A stretch of 62,772 bases of DNA from Luteolibacter sp. (lineage in GTDB: Bacteria; Verrucomicrobiota; Verrucomicrobiia; Verrucomicrobiales; Akkermansiaceae). The notes below the pieces were generated by a model. The model was not told the DNA's origin. It did not search any database and worked only from the letters and a program-made list of their open reading frames with translations. This document shows, one piece after another, positions 25,602 through 62,772 of this stretch; position 1 is the stretch's first letter; every line of letters starts with the position of its first letter. The stretch is taken from assembly GCA_030696085.1 (NCBI GenBank), contig JAUYNL010000049.1, forward strand, positions 1 to 62,772, given 5' to 3'. Made by a program: the position numbers and the translations under genes.

Positions 25602-26243
25602 ATGAAACTGAGCAAACTGATTGTATTATGCGTGTTGGCAAGTGCCGGATCGTCATTCGGTGCTTCCGGCATCTTCGGTTCCTACATCAATGTGACGTCG
25701 AGCAACCACGGCAACATCCCGATTTGGTATGATGCGCAAGCTCCTGGCGGTGGACGCGCCAGCGATCCGACGGACTTCAGCGGATTCGCGTTCGGTTCGT
25801 TCAACCCCGGTGCGGGCGGCGTTTTGAATCTCACCGGTGGTGAGGTGCTGACTTTCAAGAACGGAGGCTCGGACGTGACCGGAACCACTCTGAATTACCG
25901 AATTTATACGGCGGGTTTCCCCACAGGATCTCACAATCCGGTCAATATTGGCTTCACTGCGGACGCGACTTTTGCCGATGCCGCCGGAACTAGCTACACG
26001 GGGACAGGCGATCAGAAATGGTCGGATTCATCCTTGTGGAATCCGGTCAACCTTCTGAGCGGGCTGACGCCGGGTGACTACGAGATTGATATTTATCTAG
26101 AAGCCGCCTCTACGGACGGCACCCTTTTCTCGAACAACGGAGGCAGCAACTACAAAGCCACCTTCACCGTGGTTCCCGAGCCCTCCGCGGCGCTCCTGGG
26201 TGGTCTCGGCGCGCTTGCTCTGCTGCGCCGCCGCCGGATCTGA
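25602..26243 (+). CDS. PEP-CTERM exosortase-target protein (tandem copy 2)
   Basis: A 213-residue paralogue of the preceding gene: signal peptide to about residue 20, mature part starting ASGIFGSYINV, and the ending FSNNGGSNYKATFTVVPEP followed by a hydrophobic helix and RRRRI. The start ATG 25602 lies 46 bases after the first copy's stop, so both genes are probably on one transcript ending at the terminator at 26267. Relative to copy 1 it has an insert near residues 30-60. Function beyond surface or matrix attachment is unknown. Confidence 0.88.
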   Translation: MKLSKLIVLCVLASAGSSFGASGIFGSYINVTSSNHGNIPIWYDAQAPGGGRASDPTDFSGFAFGSFNPGAGGVLNLTGGEVLTFKNGGSDVTGTTLNYRIYTAGFPTGSHNPVNIGFTADATFADAAGTSYTGTGDQKWSDSSLWNPVNLLSGLTPGDYEIDIYLEAASTDGTLFSNNGGSNYKATFTVVPEPSAALLGGLGALALLRRRRI

Positions 26244-58587: not shown

Positions 58588-59550
58588 TCAGCCCAACTCC
58601 GCCTGCGCGCGGTTGAACGCCTGGTTGAAGGGGAGCCCTTCGGATTTCTGAATTTCACCGGCGCGGTTGCGGATGGCGGCGGCTTTCGTTTCGCCGGCCT
58701 TCTTGTCGCCATCGGAGACCGCGTCCGGAGATTTCGCTCCCTGACGGTTGAAGATCCGCTCGGGAGATTCCTTCTTCTGCGGATCCGGCAGCAGGTCGAG
58801 CATCGCCTCGGTGTCCGCGCGGTTGGCGATCAGGCGCTTCTTCACGTCGTCGCGCTTCTCTTTCGGGATGCGGTCGCCGTAGCGGTTCATGATCGTCTCG
58901 GCTTCGCTCTCGGCGTTCTTGCCCTTGAGGCTTTCCAGTTCGGACATCAGGTCCGCGAGTTTCTTCATGATGGCTGCTTCGTCGGCGTCGGCGGGCAGCC
59001 CTAGTTTGAGTGCAATTGGTTGCATGGTTCGTGTGGTTTCGGTTTCGGTTTGCTCGCCGCCTTCGCGGTTGGAGATTGGTTTCCCGCCCCGGTTGTTAGG
59101 GCGGTTGGTGAATGCCAGGCCGGAGAGCCGCAGCGGGCGCACGCTGCCGTCGCCCAGGTCCTCCACATCCTCCGGATCGTATTCGGTGGAGAAGAATTTC
59201 ACCCGCTTGTTGCGGATGGCCGGTTCGCCCAGGTCGGTGAGATCCAGGCGGCCGAAAAGTTGACTATTGCGGATCTCCACCTCCTGCAGCCAGGCATAGG
59301 CCTCAGTGGAGTTGTCCAGATCATGGCTGCGGTGGTCGATATCCACCAGCAGGCCCGACCAATTCTCACCGGCCGCGGCCTTCTCCTCGCCGAAGCGGTT
59401 CACGATGGATGCGAGCGCCTTGCCATCGATCACTTGTTTGCGCGGCCGGCCGTCCTGCCACTTCCCGGCCGGGAAGGTTCCGGTCACTTCGATCTGATAC
59501 CAGTGGTCGTCCGGGACCCGGCCATCGCGGTTGAGGATGCGTGCGTTCAT
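58588..59550 (-). CDS. phage capsid protease-scaffold protein (Mu I-like)
   Basis: A 320-residue protein. The first 150 residues match Mu I-type serine proteases (ENWSGLLVDIDHRSHDLDNS with the His region, and LRLSGLAFTNRP near residue 155). The C-terminal half is helical and charged (ADEAAIMKKLADLMSELESL), the scaffold part cleaved during head maturation. It starts inside the portal stop codon (ATGA). Confidence 0.7.
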   Translation of the reverse strand: MNARILNRDGRVPDDHWYQIEVTGTFPAGKWQDGRPRKQVIDGKALASIVNRFGEEKAAAGENWSGLLVDIDHRSHDLDNSTEAYAWLQEVEIRNSQLFGRLDLTDLGEPAIRNKRVKFFSTEYDPEDVEDLGDGSVRPLRLSGLAFTNRPNNRGGKPISNREGGEQTETETTRTMQPIALKLGLPADADEAAIMKKLADLMSELESLKGKNAESEAETIMNRYGDRIPKEKRDDVKKRLIANRADTEAMLDLLPDPQKKESPERIFNRQGAKSPDAVSDGDKKAGETKAAAIRNRAGEIQKSEGLPFNQAFNRAQAELG

Positions 59551-61535
59551 GATTTGTCGGTGTCGCCGATCAGGGCGGTTAGAAACTCCTTGCCCAGCAC
59601 ATCCTCCAGCTCCGCGCTGGCCAGGAAGTCGGGCATATCCTGGGAAATCTTTTTCAGCGCGGCGCGCATCGCCGCCTCGTCGCCGGCGTGCATCGCGGAA
59701 AACAGCGCGTCTCCCAGCGGCTGCAGGTCGCTTGCAAGCGCCTTGCGGAGGGACTGCTTGGCGGTGTTGTCGTCCGCCGCTCCTTGCTCGCGGTTCAGGA
59801 TCGGTGTCCGCTCCTGGGCGGTGGATCGCATTTGAAGGATGATGCCCAGCACATGCATGATTGGAGCCTTGATCCGGAAAACCGGAATCGGTGTGTTGGG
59901 ATCGTCCTGCAGCGCCGCGAGATATTGGTGATGACCGTCCACCACGTGGTTGTCACTGGAGATCAGCAGCGCCCGCTGCGGACCACTGTGTTCCCTGGCG
60001 CGTTGCACCTTGGCTGGACAATACTCCGCCTGGGTGGGCTTGAGGTCGGCCGGCTTGATGGACGCCTTGTCATAGTCCGCTCCATGTTTGCGCAGCTTGT
60101 TGACCATCGCGGCCCGGTTCACGCTCTGGATCTGCGGCATGATCGAGCGCGGGATTTCAAGCGTGCCCGTTTCCCTGGGGAATATTTTCCACTGACTGCC
60201 ATCCACCGCGTTCCGGTTTAGGATGGGAATTGGAGCATCCTTCACGGCTCCGGGGGGGATGGGCATGCCTGGCTGCCCGACTTTCCTCCGCACCGGATAC
60301 CCGGTCTTCTCCTCGATCCACTTCTGATCGGTTTCCAGCCCGGCACCTTCCAGCATGACCAGGTCTTTCACCACCTGTGCAGGATCGGTCTCCTCATTGG
60401 CCGCGAGTTCGAAATACGCATAGGCATCCTCGCCCGGCGTCGCGCGCTGGATGATCTCCGCGTCGATGCACTTGCGGAAAATTTCCGAAATCTCCGCAGC
60501 CTCGGCCCGTGCGATGGCCGCGAAGGTATCGCTGTGAGCGTTGCCGGCCAGCGTGCCGCTGCCGCTCTCCGCCAGCATGGTCAGCTTGCCGCCGGTGCCG
60601 CGCAAAACCACCTGCTCATCCTGATAGTAGATATGATCCTTGAACGGGTTTACGCCGCGCGCGCCGTTATCCACCGTCTTCACATCGCTGCCACCTGGTA
60701 GCACGCCGCGCGCGTCGCCCGTCACCTGGTCGGCCATCTCAAGATATTCGTCCTCTTTTCCCTCCGGCACATTATCCGGCATCACGATGAACACCGCGGG
60801 GATGCCATAGGTCTCAATGAACCCGTCCCAGTCCTTTTGCGAAAGCGACTTCCGAACGAACGCGATCAGCGCCACCCGGTTGATCGGCCGGCTCACCTCG
60901 CGGGAAACAAAGCGCTCCTCCGGAACCGGCTCACCTACCGCCGCACCTATGGTGGAATCCTTATTGAGCTGCCAGGCCCCGTAAAGCCCCTGCCTCACCC
61001 AGAACCATTGATCCACCGGCGCCAGCTCGACAATGTCGCCATCGCCATCCAGAACCTTCTCCAACCTGGTGAAGCCGCGGAAGCTCGCCATCTGCATGGC
61101 CTCGAAAGCGGCGGAAAGATTGCCGATCTTCTGATAGCCCCGCTCCAGCGCTGCCTGCTGTTTCGCCGCCACCTGTTCCTTGCCCGCCGGGATCTTCGCG
61201 CGCAGTTTGATATTCCAGTCCAGCTCCTGGATCGCGGAGGTCCGCCGTTCCACCAGGGCACCGAGCGTGGCGTCCTGCATCTCGATGAACCGATAGGTCC
61301 ACTGCAAATCCGCATAGGCACCGCGCTCGCCCTCCTCCAGCAGATGCACCGCCCGCATGATCGTCAGGCTCCGCAGTGGATTGTATCCGGAGACATGGGA
61401 AACGGCGATGGTGCGCGGACGGCCGTAGGTGACAGGATCGAGCACGCGAAGGGCATGGCCGCATTCATCGAGCACTTGATCGACGGGCATGGTGAACTGC
61501 TTGGAGGCGGAGGTTTCCGCATCGTTCCAGTTCAT
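59547..61535 (-). CDS. phage portal protein (Mu gp29/DUF935-like) with fused connector-like N-terminus
   Basis: A 662-residue protein. From about residue 45 it follows the DUF935 portal pattern (YNPLRSLTIMRAVHLLEEGE, DATLGALVERRTSAIQELDW, PINRVALIAFVRKSLSQKDW, then a FAAIARAEAAEISEIFRKCI helix). Residues 1-40 (MNWNDAETSASKQFTMPVDQ, then LDECGHALRVLDP) look like the second half of the small upstream gene and continue in frame into the portal, so an in-frame fusion is likely. The C-terminal extension (about 500-660), including HVVDGHHQYLAALQDD, is unusual for a portal and resembles a ParB-type domain. Confidence 0.75.
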   Translation of the reverse strand: MNWNDAETSASKQFTMPVDQVLDECGHALRVLDPVTYGRPRTIAVSHVSGYNPLRSLTIMRAVHLLEEGERGAYADLQWTYRFIEMQDATLGALVERRTSAIQELDWNIKLRAKIPAGKEQVAAKQQAALERGYQKIGNLSAAFEAMQMASFRGFTRLEKVLDGDGDIVELAPVDQWFWVRQGLYGAWQLNKDSTIGAAVGEPVPEERFVSREVSRPINRVALIAFVRKSLSQKDWDGFIETYGIPAVFIVMPDNVPEGKEDEYLEMADQVTGDARGVLPGGSDVKTVDNGARGVNPFKDHIYYQDEQVVLRGTGGKLTMLAESGSGTLAGNAHSDTFAAIARAEAAEISEIFRKCIDAEIIQRATPGEDAYAYFELAANEETDPAQVVKDLVMLEGAGLETDQKWIEEKTGYPVRRKVGQPGMPIPPGAVKDAPIPILNRNAVDGSQWKIFPRETGTLEIPRSIMPQIQSVNRAAMVNKLRKHGADYDKASIKPADLKPTQAEYCPAKVQRAREHSGPQRALLISSDNHVVDGHHQYLAALQDDPNTPIPVFRIKAPIMHVLGIILQMRSTAQERTPILNREQGAADDNTAKQSLRKALASDLQPLGDALFSAMHAGDEAAMRAALKKISQDMPDFLASAELEDVLGKEFLTALIGDTDKS

Positions 61536-61630
61536 GATCGTCTTGCCTTCCAGCAACAGTCCTTCGCCCGATTCTGGATGGCCAGAACTTCGGAAATCGT
61601 GAATCCGGTGATGAATAGTCCGCGGGCCAT
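61532..61630 (-). pseudogene. frameshifted 5' end of the phage connector-like gene (copy 1)
   Basis: A 32-codon frame starts MARGLFITGFTISEVLAIQN and ends CCWKARRS with a TGA that overlaps the portal ATG (ATGA). Inserting one base after AKD would rejoin it to LLLEGKTIMNWNDAE and the portal frame, which reads far more like a natural protein. So a single-base deletion has probably broken a gene that once encoded a small connector. The same 5' end occurs again at 62536-62593. Confidence 0.55.
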
Positions 61631-61631
61631 G
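61574..61631 (-). repeat. 58-bp direct repeat, copy 1
   Basis: These 58 bases match 62536-62593 at 55 positions. They cover the first 19 codons of the connector-like gene and its ATG. The two copies, 962 bases apart, bracket the PEP-CTERM gene. Confidence 0.85.
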
Positions 61632-61713
61632 CACGGCGGCGGGTGTCAACGAGAGACCGGAGATTCGAAGTTTCCGAACACAATCGAAGCAAATATCGCA
61701 CAAGATTGAGCAA

Positions 61714-61757
61714 AATACGCGGAGTAAGTGCGTGTATTTTTTGGCATGAATATTGAT
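61714..61757 (+). promoter_or_regulatory. possible promoter/operator of the PEP-CTERM cargo gene
   Basis: An imperfect 25-base palindrome with arms AATAC...GTATT (61714-61738) is followed directly by TGGCATG-AATA-TTGAT (61742-61757), which resembles a sigma-54 -24/-12 promoter (TGGCACG-N4-TTGC) but with GA for GC at -12. It lies 70 bases before the ATG at 61828. Confidence 0.3.
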
Positions 61758-61827
61758 GTTCCCATGTGGGGATGTGGGAATGTGAAAATCAACCCACCTC
61801 CCAAACCTGCAAACACCCATAAAGTCC

Positions 61828-62529
61828 ATGAAAGCGCGCCCTTTTCCATTCGCCGGTCTCGTAACCTCCGCCGGACTCACCGCAGCATTGATTTTGCTCG
61901 GCGCACAAGTCGGGAATGCTACCACGGTGATCCCCACCACATCCTCAGGCGACGGCTATTATCACAACGAATTGGGGACCGCTTACGACTTCTTCGATGG
62001 AGTCTCGACTTCCATTGGAGTGTCATATTATTTCGATGGGTCAAGCGCTTCAGTAAATCAGAATACCGGCTACCTTCAGTTCGCTCTCGGCAGCCTGCCG
62101 ATTGCTGATGATTACAGCTCGATCATGTTGAGCCTCTATGTGACCAACAGTTATTATGCCGATGAAAGCACCTCGGCTGGCTATGTCAGGCATTGCACGA
62201 ATTCCAGCACCGCCAACGGACTAGCCTCGCAGAGGCTGGAGGGAGATGTGCAGGTGCTCGAAATTAAAGACCAGCCCGACGGTTGGTTGGCGATCGATGT
62301 AACTACCCAAGTGAAGAGTAATCTGGCGGCTGGATATTCCTATGCAGCCTTTAGCCTCAATTACAACACAGCTGGCTACTTCAGGAATTCGGGATTCACG
62401 GTCGCCACTGCGGATGCCGGTGCCAATGGCCCCTACCCGAGCTTTACTCCGGTGCCGGAGCCGTCCTCGACTGCGCTGTTCATTATGACAACCGCAGGGC
62501 TTATTTCTACCTATCGGCGCAGGAAATAA
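61828..62529 (+). CDS. PEP-CTERM surface protein carried within the prophage
   Basis: A 233-residue exported protein with a signal peptide (about residues 1-31, ending GNA) and a C-terminal PEP-CTERM signal: FTPVPEPSSTALFI, a hydrophobic stretch and YRRRK. The middle is beta-rich (VQVLEIKDQPDGWLAIDVTT) like extracellular carbohydrate-binding DNRLRE-type domains. It runs opposite to the phage genes, has its own upstream control region, and sits between 58-bp repeats of a phage gene. It is therefore probably captured host-type cargo expressed during lysogeny. Confidence 0.8.
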   Translation: MKARPFPFAGLVTSAGLTAALILLGAQVGNATTVIPTTSSGDGYYHNELGTAYDFFDGVSTSIGVSYYFDGSSASVNQNTGYLQFALGSLPIADDYSSIMLSLYVTNSYYADESTSAGYVRHCTNSSTANGLASQRLEGDVQVLEIKDQPDGWLAIDVTTQVKSNLAAGYSYAAFSLNYNTAGYFRNSGFTVATADAGANGPYPSFTPVPEPSSTALFIMTTAGLISTYRRRK

Positions 62530-62535
62530 CCGCTG

Positions 62536-62593
62536 CTGGATGGCGAGCACTTCGGAAATCGTGAATCCGGTGATGAAGAGTCCGCGGGCCATG
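62536..62593 (-). repeat. 58-bp direct repeat, copy 2 (5' end of the connector-like gene)
   Basis: This copy preserves the ATG at 62590-62592 and the first 19 codons (MARGLFITGFTISEVLAIQ) of the connector-like gene, preceded by a GGAAAGG Shine-Dalgarno-like sequence 11 bases upstream. After codon 19 the frame runs antisense through the PEP-CTERM gene and is not meaningful. It is probably the original start of the phage late operon. Confidence 0.8.
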
Positions 62594-62673
62594 GATCAGT
62601 TGCCTTTCCAAGTGTGGCGGGGGAAATTTTTCTTTCCGTTAAAACGTTAAAATCGATTGGTGCTGGTTGATCG

Positions 62674-62693
62674 GGCGATGTTCCGACATCGCC
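62674..62693. promoter_or_regulatory. perfect inverted repeat in the divergent control region
   Basis: GGCGATGT (62674-62681) and ACATCGCC (62686-62693) form an 8-bp perfect inverted repeat with a TCCG loop, between the phage late genes and a rightward gene starting at 62726. GTTAAAA occurs twice nearby (62638 and 62646). It is a candidate operator or hairpin. Confidence 0.45.
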
Positions 62694-62725
62694 TGTTTGG
62701 AATTGAATTCAAACCAACCAACACC

Positions 62726-62772
62726 ATGAACGATCAGACAGGGACACAGGCACCGGCGCAAGCCGGGATTGA
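62726..62772 (+). CDS. start of a rightward gene cut by the window edge
   Basis: ATG at 62726 opens a frame (MNDQTGTQAPAQAGI) that runs off the window. Good spacing from the control region and absence of stops support a real start. Position divergent from the phage late operon suggests an early or regulatory phage gene; nothing more can be said. Confidence 0.4.
   Translation, partial: MNDQTGTQAPAQAGI

Follow-up and report, generated by a model that had tools for sequence, protein, structure and literature searches.

A complete gene for a PEP-CTERM surface protein near the end of the window (the whole stretch of Luteolibacter sp. DNA analysed here, 62,772 nt) is probably the cargo of a lambda-type Verrucomicrobiota phage. 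The gene would have been carried at the junction between the endolysin gene and a gpW-like gene, recombination between phages would have produced the repeat on its two sides, and the locus would have decayed later. The following features (position, strand, description) were assigned to this part of the window:

59547..61535 (-), Mu-like portal ORF; matches portals only from about 61385 on, with gpW-derived codons before that point
61383..61631 (-), gpW-like gene, copy 1; nearly full (249 nt), 97% DNA identity to locus L044, frameshifted
61568..61631 (-), direct repeat copy 1; the initial 64 nt of the gpW-like gene, identical to copy 2 at 59/64 positions
61632..61651 (-), conserved leader GTTGACA-N13-ATG of gpW copy 1; a type seen at all endolysin/gpW sites counted as filled
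61828..62529 (+), PEP-CTERM surface-protein gene; 233 aa, complete, with signal-peptide-like N-terminus, CBM96/DNRLRE-type domain and C-terminal PEP-CTERM
62530..62593 (-), direct repeat copy 2; the initial 64 nt of another gpW-like gene, which breaks off at the PEP-CTERM stop codon
62594..62617 (-), 3' end of an M15-type endolysin gene, the natural upstream neighbour of gpW; homology to 62614 (L053, L071 and others) or to 62613 (L061)
62618..62772 (+), end of an insertion sequence, a genome-repeated element inside which the contig (C7) stops

A first-pass annotation of the letters alone had described a complete exosortase-target gene opposite to the virion operon, and the gene at 61828-62529 (+) agrees with this description. 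Its product has a hydrophobic N-terminus, predicted by hydropathy alone to be a signal peptide, a match to the Pfam family CBM96 (5e-7) and, at the C-terminus, a PEP motif, a hydrophobic segment and a basic tail. The Pfam PEP-CTERM profile scored 17.8 bits in hmmscan (below the Pfam threshold of 20.7) and 22 bits in the genome search, while TIGR02595 scored 18.1 bits, above its 16-bit cut-off. The genome encodes one exosortase (PF09721, E 1.3e-47) and contains 18 PEP-CTERM motif matches, the window gene among them; hence, the host could sort such a product. With the PEP-CTERM/exosortase system (Haft et al. 2006, as cited in PMC4886054) the window gene shares a hydrophobic N-terminus, the PEP motif followed by a hydrophobic stretch and a basic end, and an exosortase in the genome; it differs by its location between phage sequences. 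Another PEP-CTERM motif lies at 26172-26237 of the window, outside the phage region. A second copy of the window gene was not found anywhere in the genome. The GC content is 0.51-0.56 in the cargo stretch versus 0.60-0.65 in the phage operon. The stop codon abuts repeat copy 2, no terminator was seen between the two in the window, and promoter and terminator scans of the window were no better than chance.

The exact placement of the gene between direct repeats was confirmed. The repeats measure 64 nt (59/64 identical); the 58 nt reported before are their inner core, and two of the five differences fall in the outer 6 nt. The best ungapped 64-mer match in 60000-62772 was 59, compared with 33-37 in 20 base-shuffled versions, and is therefore not due to chance. 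No other repeat of at least 20 nt was present in this stretch beyond the gpW pair. The only matches to the stretch 61520-61640 in the complete genome (G000) were the two repeat copies. A dispersed host sequence unrelated to the phage gene, which the first-pass annotation had named as the case that would speak against it, was thus rejected.

As had been proposed, both repeats represent the 5' end of a phage gene, though of a phage other than the one that left the neighbouring virion operon. The repeated gene belongs to lambda-type Verrucomicrobiota phages, in which the L044-type order is terminase, M15 endolysin, an 86-aa gpW-like gene and portal. It is foreign to the adjoining operon, whose portal is Mu-like, and the repeats hence do not come from this operon. 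With the portal ORF as query, the relatives fell into two groups, Mu-like portals, the closest of which have DNA homology from about 61385 on, and loci that matched only about the first 25-53 residues (8/12 genome loci and 60 of the 80 viral loci kept). The 86-aa protein had no match in Pfam or PHROGs, nor did its sequence place it in the gpW family; the name gpW-like is our assumption from its size and its position before a lambda-type portal, together with general knowledge of such phages. Compared with its phage relatives, copy 1 is one base short, and near 61385 its reading frame continues into the Mu-like portal, in agreement with the earlier remark that this copy is attached to the portal. 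The portal itself has lost the N-terminus present in L024, L025, L028 and L029, and its terminase neighbour is missing as well. The C-terminal part of the portal ORF (59547-60200) matches regions of PLxRFG/DarB-like phage proteins and phrog_2859 and represents an extra domain located behind the portal.

On the other side of the cargo, the endolysin remnant is interrupted by an insertion sequence, which we take to be IS256/Mutator-like. It has at least 17 long matches in the genome including that of the window (40 of 68 candidates scored); several copies are located at contig ends, and the element breaks the assembly. One query for a lambda-type terminase found nothing in the genome, an empty answer that alone is weak evidence, and the only endolysin elsewhere was a 39% relative carrying a stop. 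Contig C29 contains another prophage; it was rejected as the missing part of the Mu-like operon of the window because it has its own Mu-type terminase and, judged by eye, its own portal. The phage parts left in the window measure about 20-250 nt. With no lambda-type terminase found, a frameshift, a gene fusion and an insertion sequence, the locus is decayed and gives no evidence of a working prophage. The window copy is a decayed fragment, and its origin from a phage is likely.

The two gpW copies differ in their leaders and in their relatives. Copy 1 is preceded by GTTGACA-N13-ATG, whereas in copy 2 the endolysin stop codon lies beside the ATG; both leader types (TTGAC-led and endolysin-stop) also occur in other phage contigs. 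The nearest relative of copy 1 is L044 (on the same contig as L239, 97% identity), and that of copy 2 is L133, followed by L281 and others. Of the two origins considered in the first-pass annotation, recombination between two related phages fits this combination of different leaders and different nearest relatives best. Simple insertion with duplication of the target is less favoured, and a transposon target-site duplication was rejected, since both copies keep different phage-type leaders. L133, the closest match to the 64 nt of copy 2, is TTGAC-led although copy 2 has the endolysin-stop leader. Leader and gpW body have thus been reshuffled among these phages, without strict assortment.

In the sequence of events that we propose, the PEP-CTERM gene would have been carried in reverse orientation between the M15 endolysin and gpW-like genes of a lambda-type phage. 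The donor would be a phage with the cargo beside a TTGAC-led gpW gene, and the recipient a relative with gpW directly after the endolysin gene. One crossover may have been homologous or have taken place downstream in gpW; the other would be illegitimate, 64 nt into the gpW gene of the recipient and at the stop codon of the cargo. The product would have the order endolysin, gpW 5' piece, cargo, leader and gpW. Afterwards, decay would have brought the frameshift in gpW, the in-frame fusion to the Mu-like portal and the IS256-like insertion in the endolysin remnant. Phage delivery of the gene and the order of these events are conjectural, built on the arrangement of the remnants.

Relatives of this phage family indicate that the endolysin/gpW junction accommodates additional genes. 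From 240 placements, 160 unique gpW sites were obtained; only identical flanks were removed, so that related phages count repeatedly. A junction was scored as filled if its gap reached at least 60 nt: 115 were empty, 36 filled and 9 unscored. A filled gap separated gpW from the endolysin or terminase gene at 36/75 scorable TTGAC-led sites, a class over-sampled by one search that targeted it, versus 0/76 of the others (Fisher 4e-14, relatedness ignored). Filled gaps ranged from 155 to 1990 nt. An ORF of at least 60 aa was present in 33/36 and absent from 3/36, and the longest ORF was reversed at 12/33 sites. The cargo includes Fic/SoFic proteins, RiboL-PSP HEPN proteins, XRE-type regulators and an amidase. 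With HEPN RiboL-PSP and Fic/SoFic genes in the gaps of L018:3786-4385, L128:5524-6573 and L186, the junction is a candidate defence hotspot; PADLOC, run on 10 cargo proteins, gave nothing for six, and L054 had only a weak match. A PEP-CTERM motif was found in 0/33 of the longest ORFs at filled sites, with one ORF tested per site.

The motif TTGACA located 13-16 nt before an ATG recurs at many different genes of this phage family (L044, L054, L091, L112 and others). An open ATG followed at 13, 14 or 16 nt after 337/660 occurrences of TTGACA, a count biased by overlapping loci and by the selection of gpW sites. The motif may be a start signal; no enrichment of the TTGACA-ATG signal was detected in the window. 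GTTGACA was also considered as the core of an insertion site and rejected, since TTGACA precedes many genes of these phages.

Morons, or lysogenic-conversion genes of lambdoid phages, are extra genes carried by phages. Similar to these, the window gene is an addition between pieces of two genes, endolysin and gpW, that are neighbours in related phages, and it shares the reversed orientation often found among morons. In contrast to lambdoid morons, its product is an exosortase (PEP-CTERM) substrate, and neither a terminator nor a working phage was found in the window. Since the phage parts of the window are fragments, the gene is not carried by an intact phage or prophage, and no lambda-type terminase was found, we do not class it as the moron of a working prophage. 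The original idea of phage cargo is supported for the endolysin/gpW site, with its 36 filled counterparts, and is not supported for the neighbouring Mu-like prophage or for a working prophage, given the fragments and the frameshift.

The closest homolog of the window protein (70% aa identity) is encoded at L209:9086-10159 in G118. It occupies a chromosomal site with no recognised phage genes, and its flanks are unlike those of the window. The same gene at a non-phage site with identical flanks had been set as a case against the cargo idea; a site without recognised phage genes was found for a homolog, the identical flanks were not. The location in G118 suggests that the window gene comes from a host lineage. 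The two proteins correspond over residues 1-214, after which the homolog has a different, longer C-terminus without PEP-CTERM; judged from this pair of sequences, the sorting tail of such proteins looks exchangeable. A relative of the window protein was not found encoded on viral contigs in a search limited to close relatives.

The G118 homolog also bears on the view, rather unlikely in our judgement, that a resident host gene, never phage cargo, became enclosed by two prophage remnants through deletions, activity of insertion sequences and rearrangement. PEP-CTERM genes are native to this genome, as the 18 motif matches attest, the closest homolog lies where no phage genes were recognised, and the region combines the remains of several elements with an insertion sequence at its end. 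Against such trapping, both flanks derive from one phage stretch of roughly 100 nt, the endolysin/gpW junction of a single phage family, in natural order and in the same orientation, which two independent remnants would hardly yield. Relatives carry cargo at this same junction, and the leader belongs to the type that accompanies cargo.

A partly parallel locus exists in G168 (L210) of the same genus, where a reversed Fic gene lies between two gpW 5' pieces. In contrast to the window, this locus has TTGAC leaders at both pieces, contains no full gpW gene and showed no endolysin end. In the L210 relatives L186 and L188, this Fic cargo is flanked by an endolysin end and gpW, and no additional piece is present. 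An IS91-type transposase is located near the Fic locus of G168. Truncated gpW 5' pieces at L210:1216-1282, L211:5162-5232 and L212:854-920 all break at about nt 46-47.

Two loci of one genus with a reversed gene between gpW 5' pieces, together with the shared breakpoint of the three truncated pieces, could point to a mobile cassette for which the gpW 5' end is the target of site-specific recombination, the cargo being integrated between two copies. We give this model only a slim chance: two gpW 5' copies were present, among 308 loci, only in those covering the window and G168, the subset of filled sites searched for it had no gpW piece left of the cargo, nine cargo proteins run through Pfam included no recombinase, and the break in the window is at nt 64 instead of 46. 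The chance of an assembly chimera near the contig end is slimmer still: although the contig ends in a dispersed insertion sequence about 180 nt from copy 2, the joins lie inside the contig, and the insertion sequence ends common to contigs (106-144 nt) exceed the repeat (64 nt, 59/64) in length, which suggests that the assembly words were longer than the repeat.

Phage cargo remains the preferred reading, and PEP-CTERM genes are carried by other phages of this family, at a different junction: the 0/33 result at endolysin/gpW sites is set against a recurrent occurrence between the portal and protease genes. Among 50 viral contigs, PEP-CTERM matches occurred in three, two of them over the cut-off (G451, G462) and one below it (G457). 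Both matches in G451 lie beyond an integrase-like gene and arg-like genes, and of the G462 pair one is near transposase-like ORFs (named by eye); these three were read as host-side. The other gene of G462 is flanked by the portal and S49 protease genes and has their orientation; the G457 gene (L170/L314; 16.4 bits, below cut-off) occupies the corresponding place. Further cases came from a motif scan. In 89 unique loci with a portal end and a protease start, 48 gaps were shorter than 60 nt and 41 were filled. TTGAC preceded the protease gene in all 89 of these 89 loci, filled or empty, and is therefore no mark of cargo by itself.

A PEP-CTERM-type gene was present in 12/41 filled portal/protease gaps, or 13 counting L165, whose gene was missed because of a longer antisense ORF; the count relies on a C-terminal motif in non-overlapping longest ORFs. 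The motif scan accepts PET for PEP, which applies to L217 among the 12 and likewise to L352, L353, L357 and L358. By alignment, nine of the 12 genes are formylglycine-enzyme-like (Pfam was run on four of the nine), and a loose search, free of a shuffle control, gave a candidate terminator hairpin behind 8/12. A profile scan for such proteins matched 80 loci. Among the best 20 new ones (L341-L360), several of them on contigs already among those examined, a portal gene was upstream in 20/20, a protease gene downstream within the locus in 16/20 and a PEP/PET-type tail present in 19/20, the remaining protein being cut by the contig end. Examples between portal and S49 protease are L318:16818-17729, L019:7661-8656, L052:4599-5552 and L237:1389-2285. 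The L237 protein had no match in the INPHARED phages, and the AlphaFold model of one phage PEP-CTERM protein had a mean pLDDT of 39. With 12 of 41 filled gaps containing them, phage-carried PEP-CTERM genes are recurrent.

In seven contigs (L165, L321-L325 and L351) the PEP-CTERM gene is followed by a retroelement reverse transcriptase; 21 reverse transcriptase loci were matched and the six closest were examined. The portal and protease genes of L165 enclose the genes for the PEP-CTERM protein, Avd (bAvd, 1e-17) and the reverse transcriptase (RVT_1, 6e-19) together with a template repeat. The other loci have homologs of the reverse transcriptase and Avd, and the gene order is kept as far as the contigs reach, the target gene being cut by the contig start in L323-L325 and L351 ending inside the reverse transcriptase. 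Template and variable repeat of L165 differ at 16/32 adenines and at 0/95 other bases. Mismatches amount to 23/34 adenines and 1/96 others in L321 and L322, which share the variable repeat, and to 23/33 adenines and 3/98 others in L324. In L325, with an alignment running past the repeat, they affect 31/46 adenines and 20/133 others; L323 is too short for comparison. Reverse transcriptase, Avd, template and variable repeats and adenine-specific mismatches are thus all present in L165, L321, L322 and L324 (L165:2511-5201, L321:543-3236 and L322:1685-4378). L165 and L321, two nearly identical phages, have 24 mismatches over 4434 nt, 21 of them in the 127-nt variable repeat and 3 within 15 nt of the contig end, and their sole gap (3 nt) is also inside the variable repeat. 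On these comparisons of repeats, the retroelement appears to keep rewriting PEP-CTERM surface proteins in a few of the relatives. The target profile matches the Treponema variable protein 1 (2y3c, 3e-10), with equal or better matches to EgtB and formylglycine-generating enzymes. With the L165 reverse transcriptase as query no match was obtained in the window, and the window gene has neither a reverse transcriptase nor template and variable repeats.

Diversity-generating retroelements with cell-surface targets are described in Legionella and Treponema (PMC8144416). Similar to these, L165, L321-L325 and L351 have reverse transcriptase and Avd genes behind the target and, where readable, adenine-biased template and variable repeats. 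They differ in the location of the element inside a phage head operon and in the PEP-CTERM tail of the target; the window has no such element. Phage retroelements of the BPP-1 type mainly target receptor-binding tail proteins (PMC10743442). The element of the relatives is also phage-encoded, whereas its target is a signal-peptide/PEP-CTERM protein encoded between the portal and protease genes.

Searches of the literature for PEP-CTERM together with phage-encoded or auxiliary metabolic genes, lysogenic conversion, viral contigs or retroelements, which covered few subscription papers, found no report. In their passages on PEP-CTERM, PMC12642866 and PMC4886054 describe no phage-carried PEP-CTERM gene, and PEP-CTERM is absent from the main text of the global retroelement survey (PMC8144416). 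The combination of phage cargo, exosortase sorting and targeted hypermutation was likewise not found in the literature searched, largely without subscription papers.

On balance, we lean towards the view that lambda-type Verrucomicrobiota phages hold an arsenal of PEP-CTERM surface proteins in the head operon, a subset of them hypermutated by a retroelement, and that the window gene is one of this arsenal at a second cargo site. If expressed, its product would be exported by the signal peptide and handled by the host exosortase, and the gene could then act as surface-changing cargo; a changed surface might block other phages or aid attachment. If this view is true, a lysogen would expose a lectin-like protein that is encoded by the phage and changes rapidly, and Verrucomicrobiota prophages are predicted to alter the surface display of their hosts. 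The endolysin/gpW and portal/protease junctions are two concrete cargo sites to search for surface genes and for genes of the defence type (Fic, HEPN).
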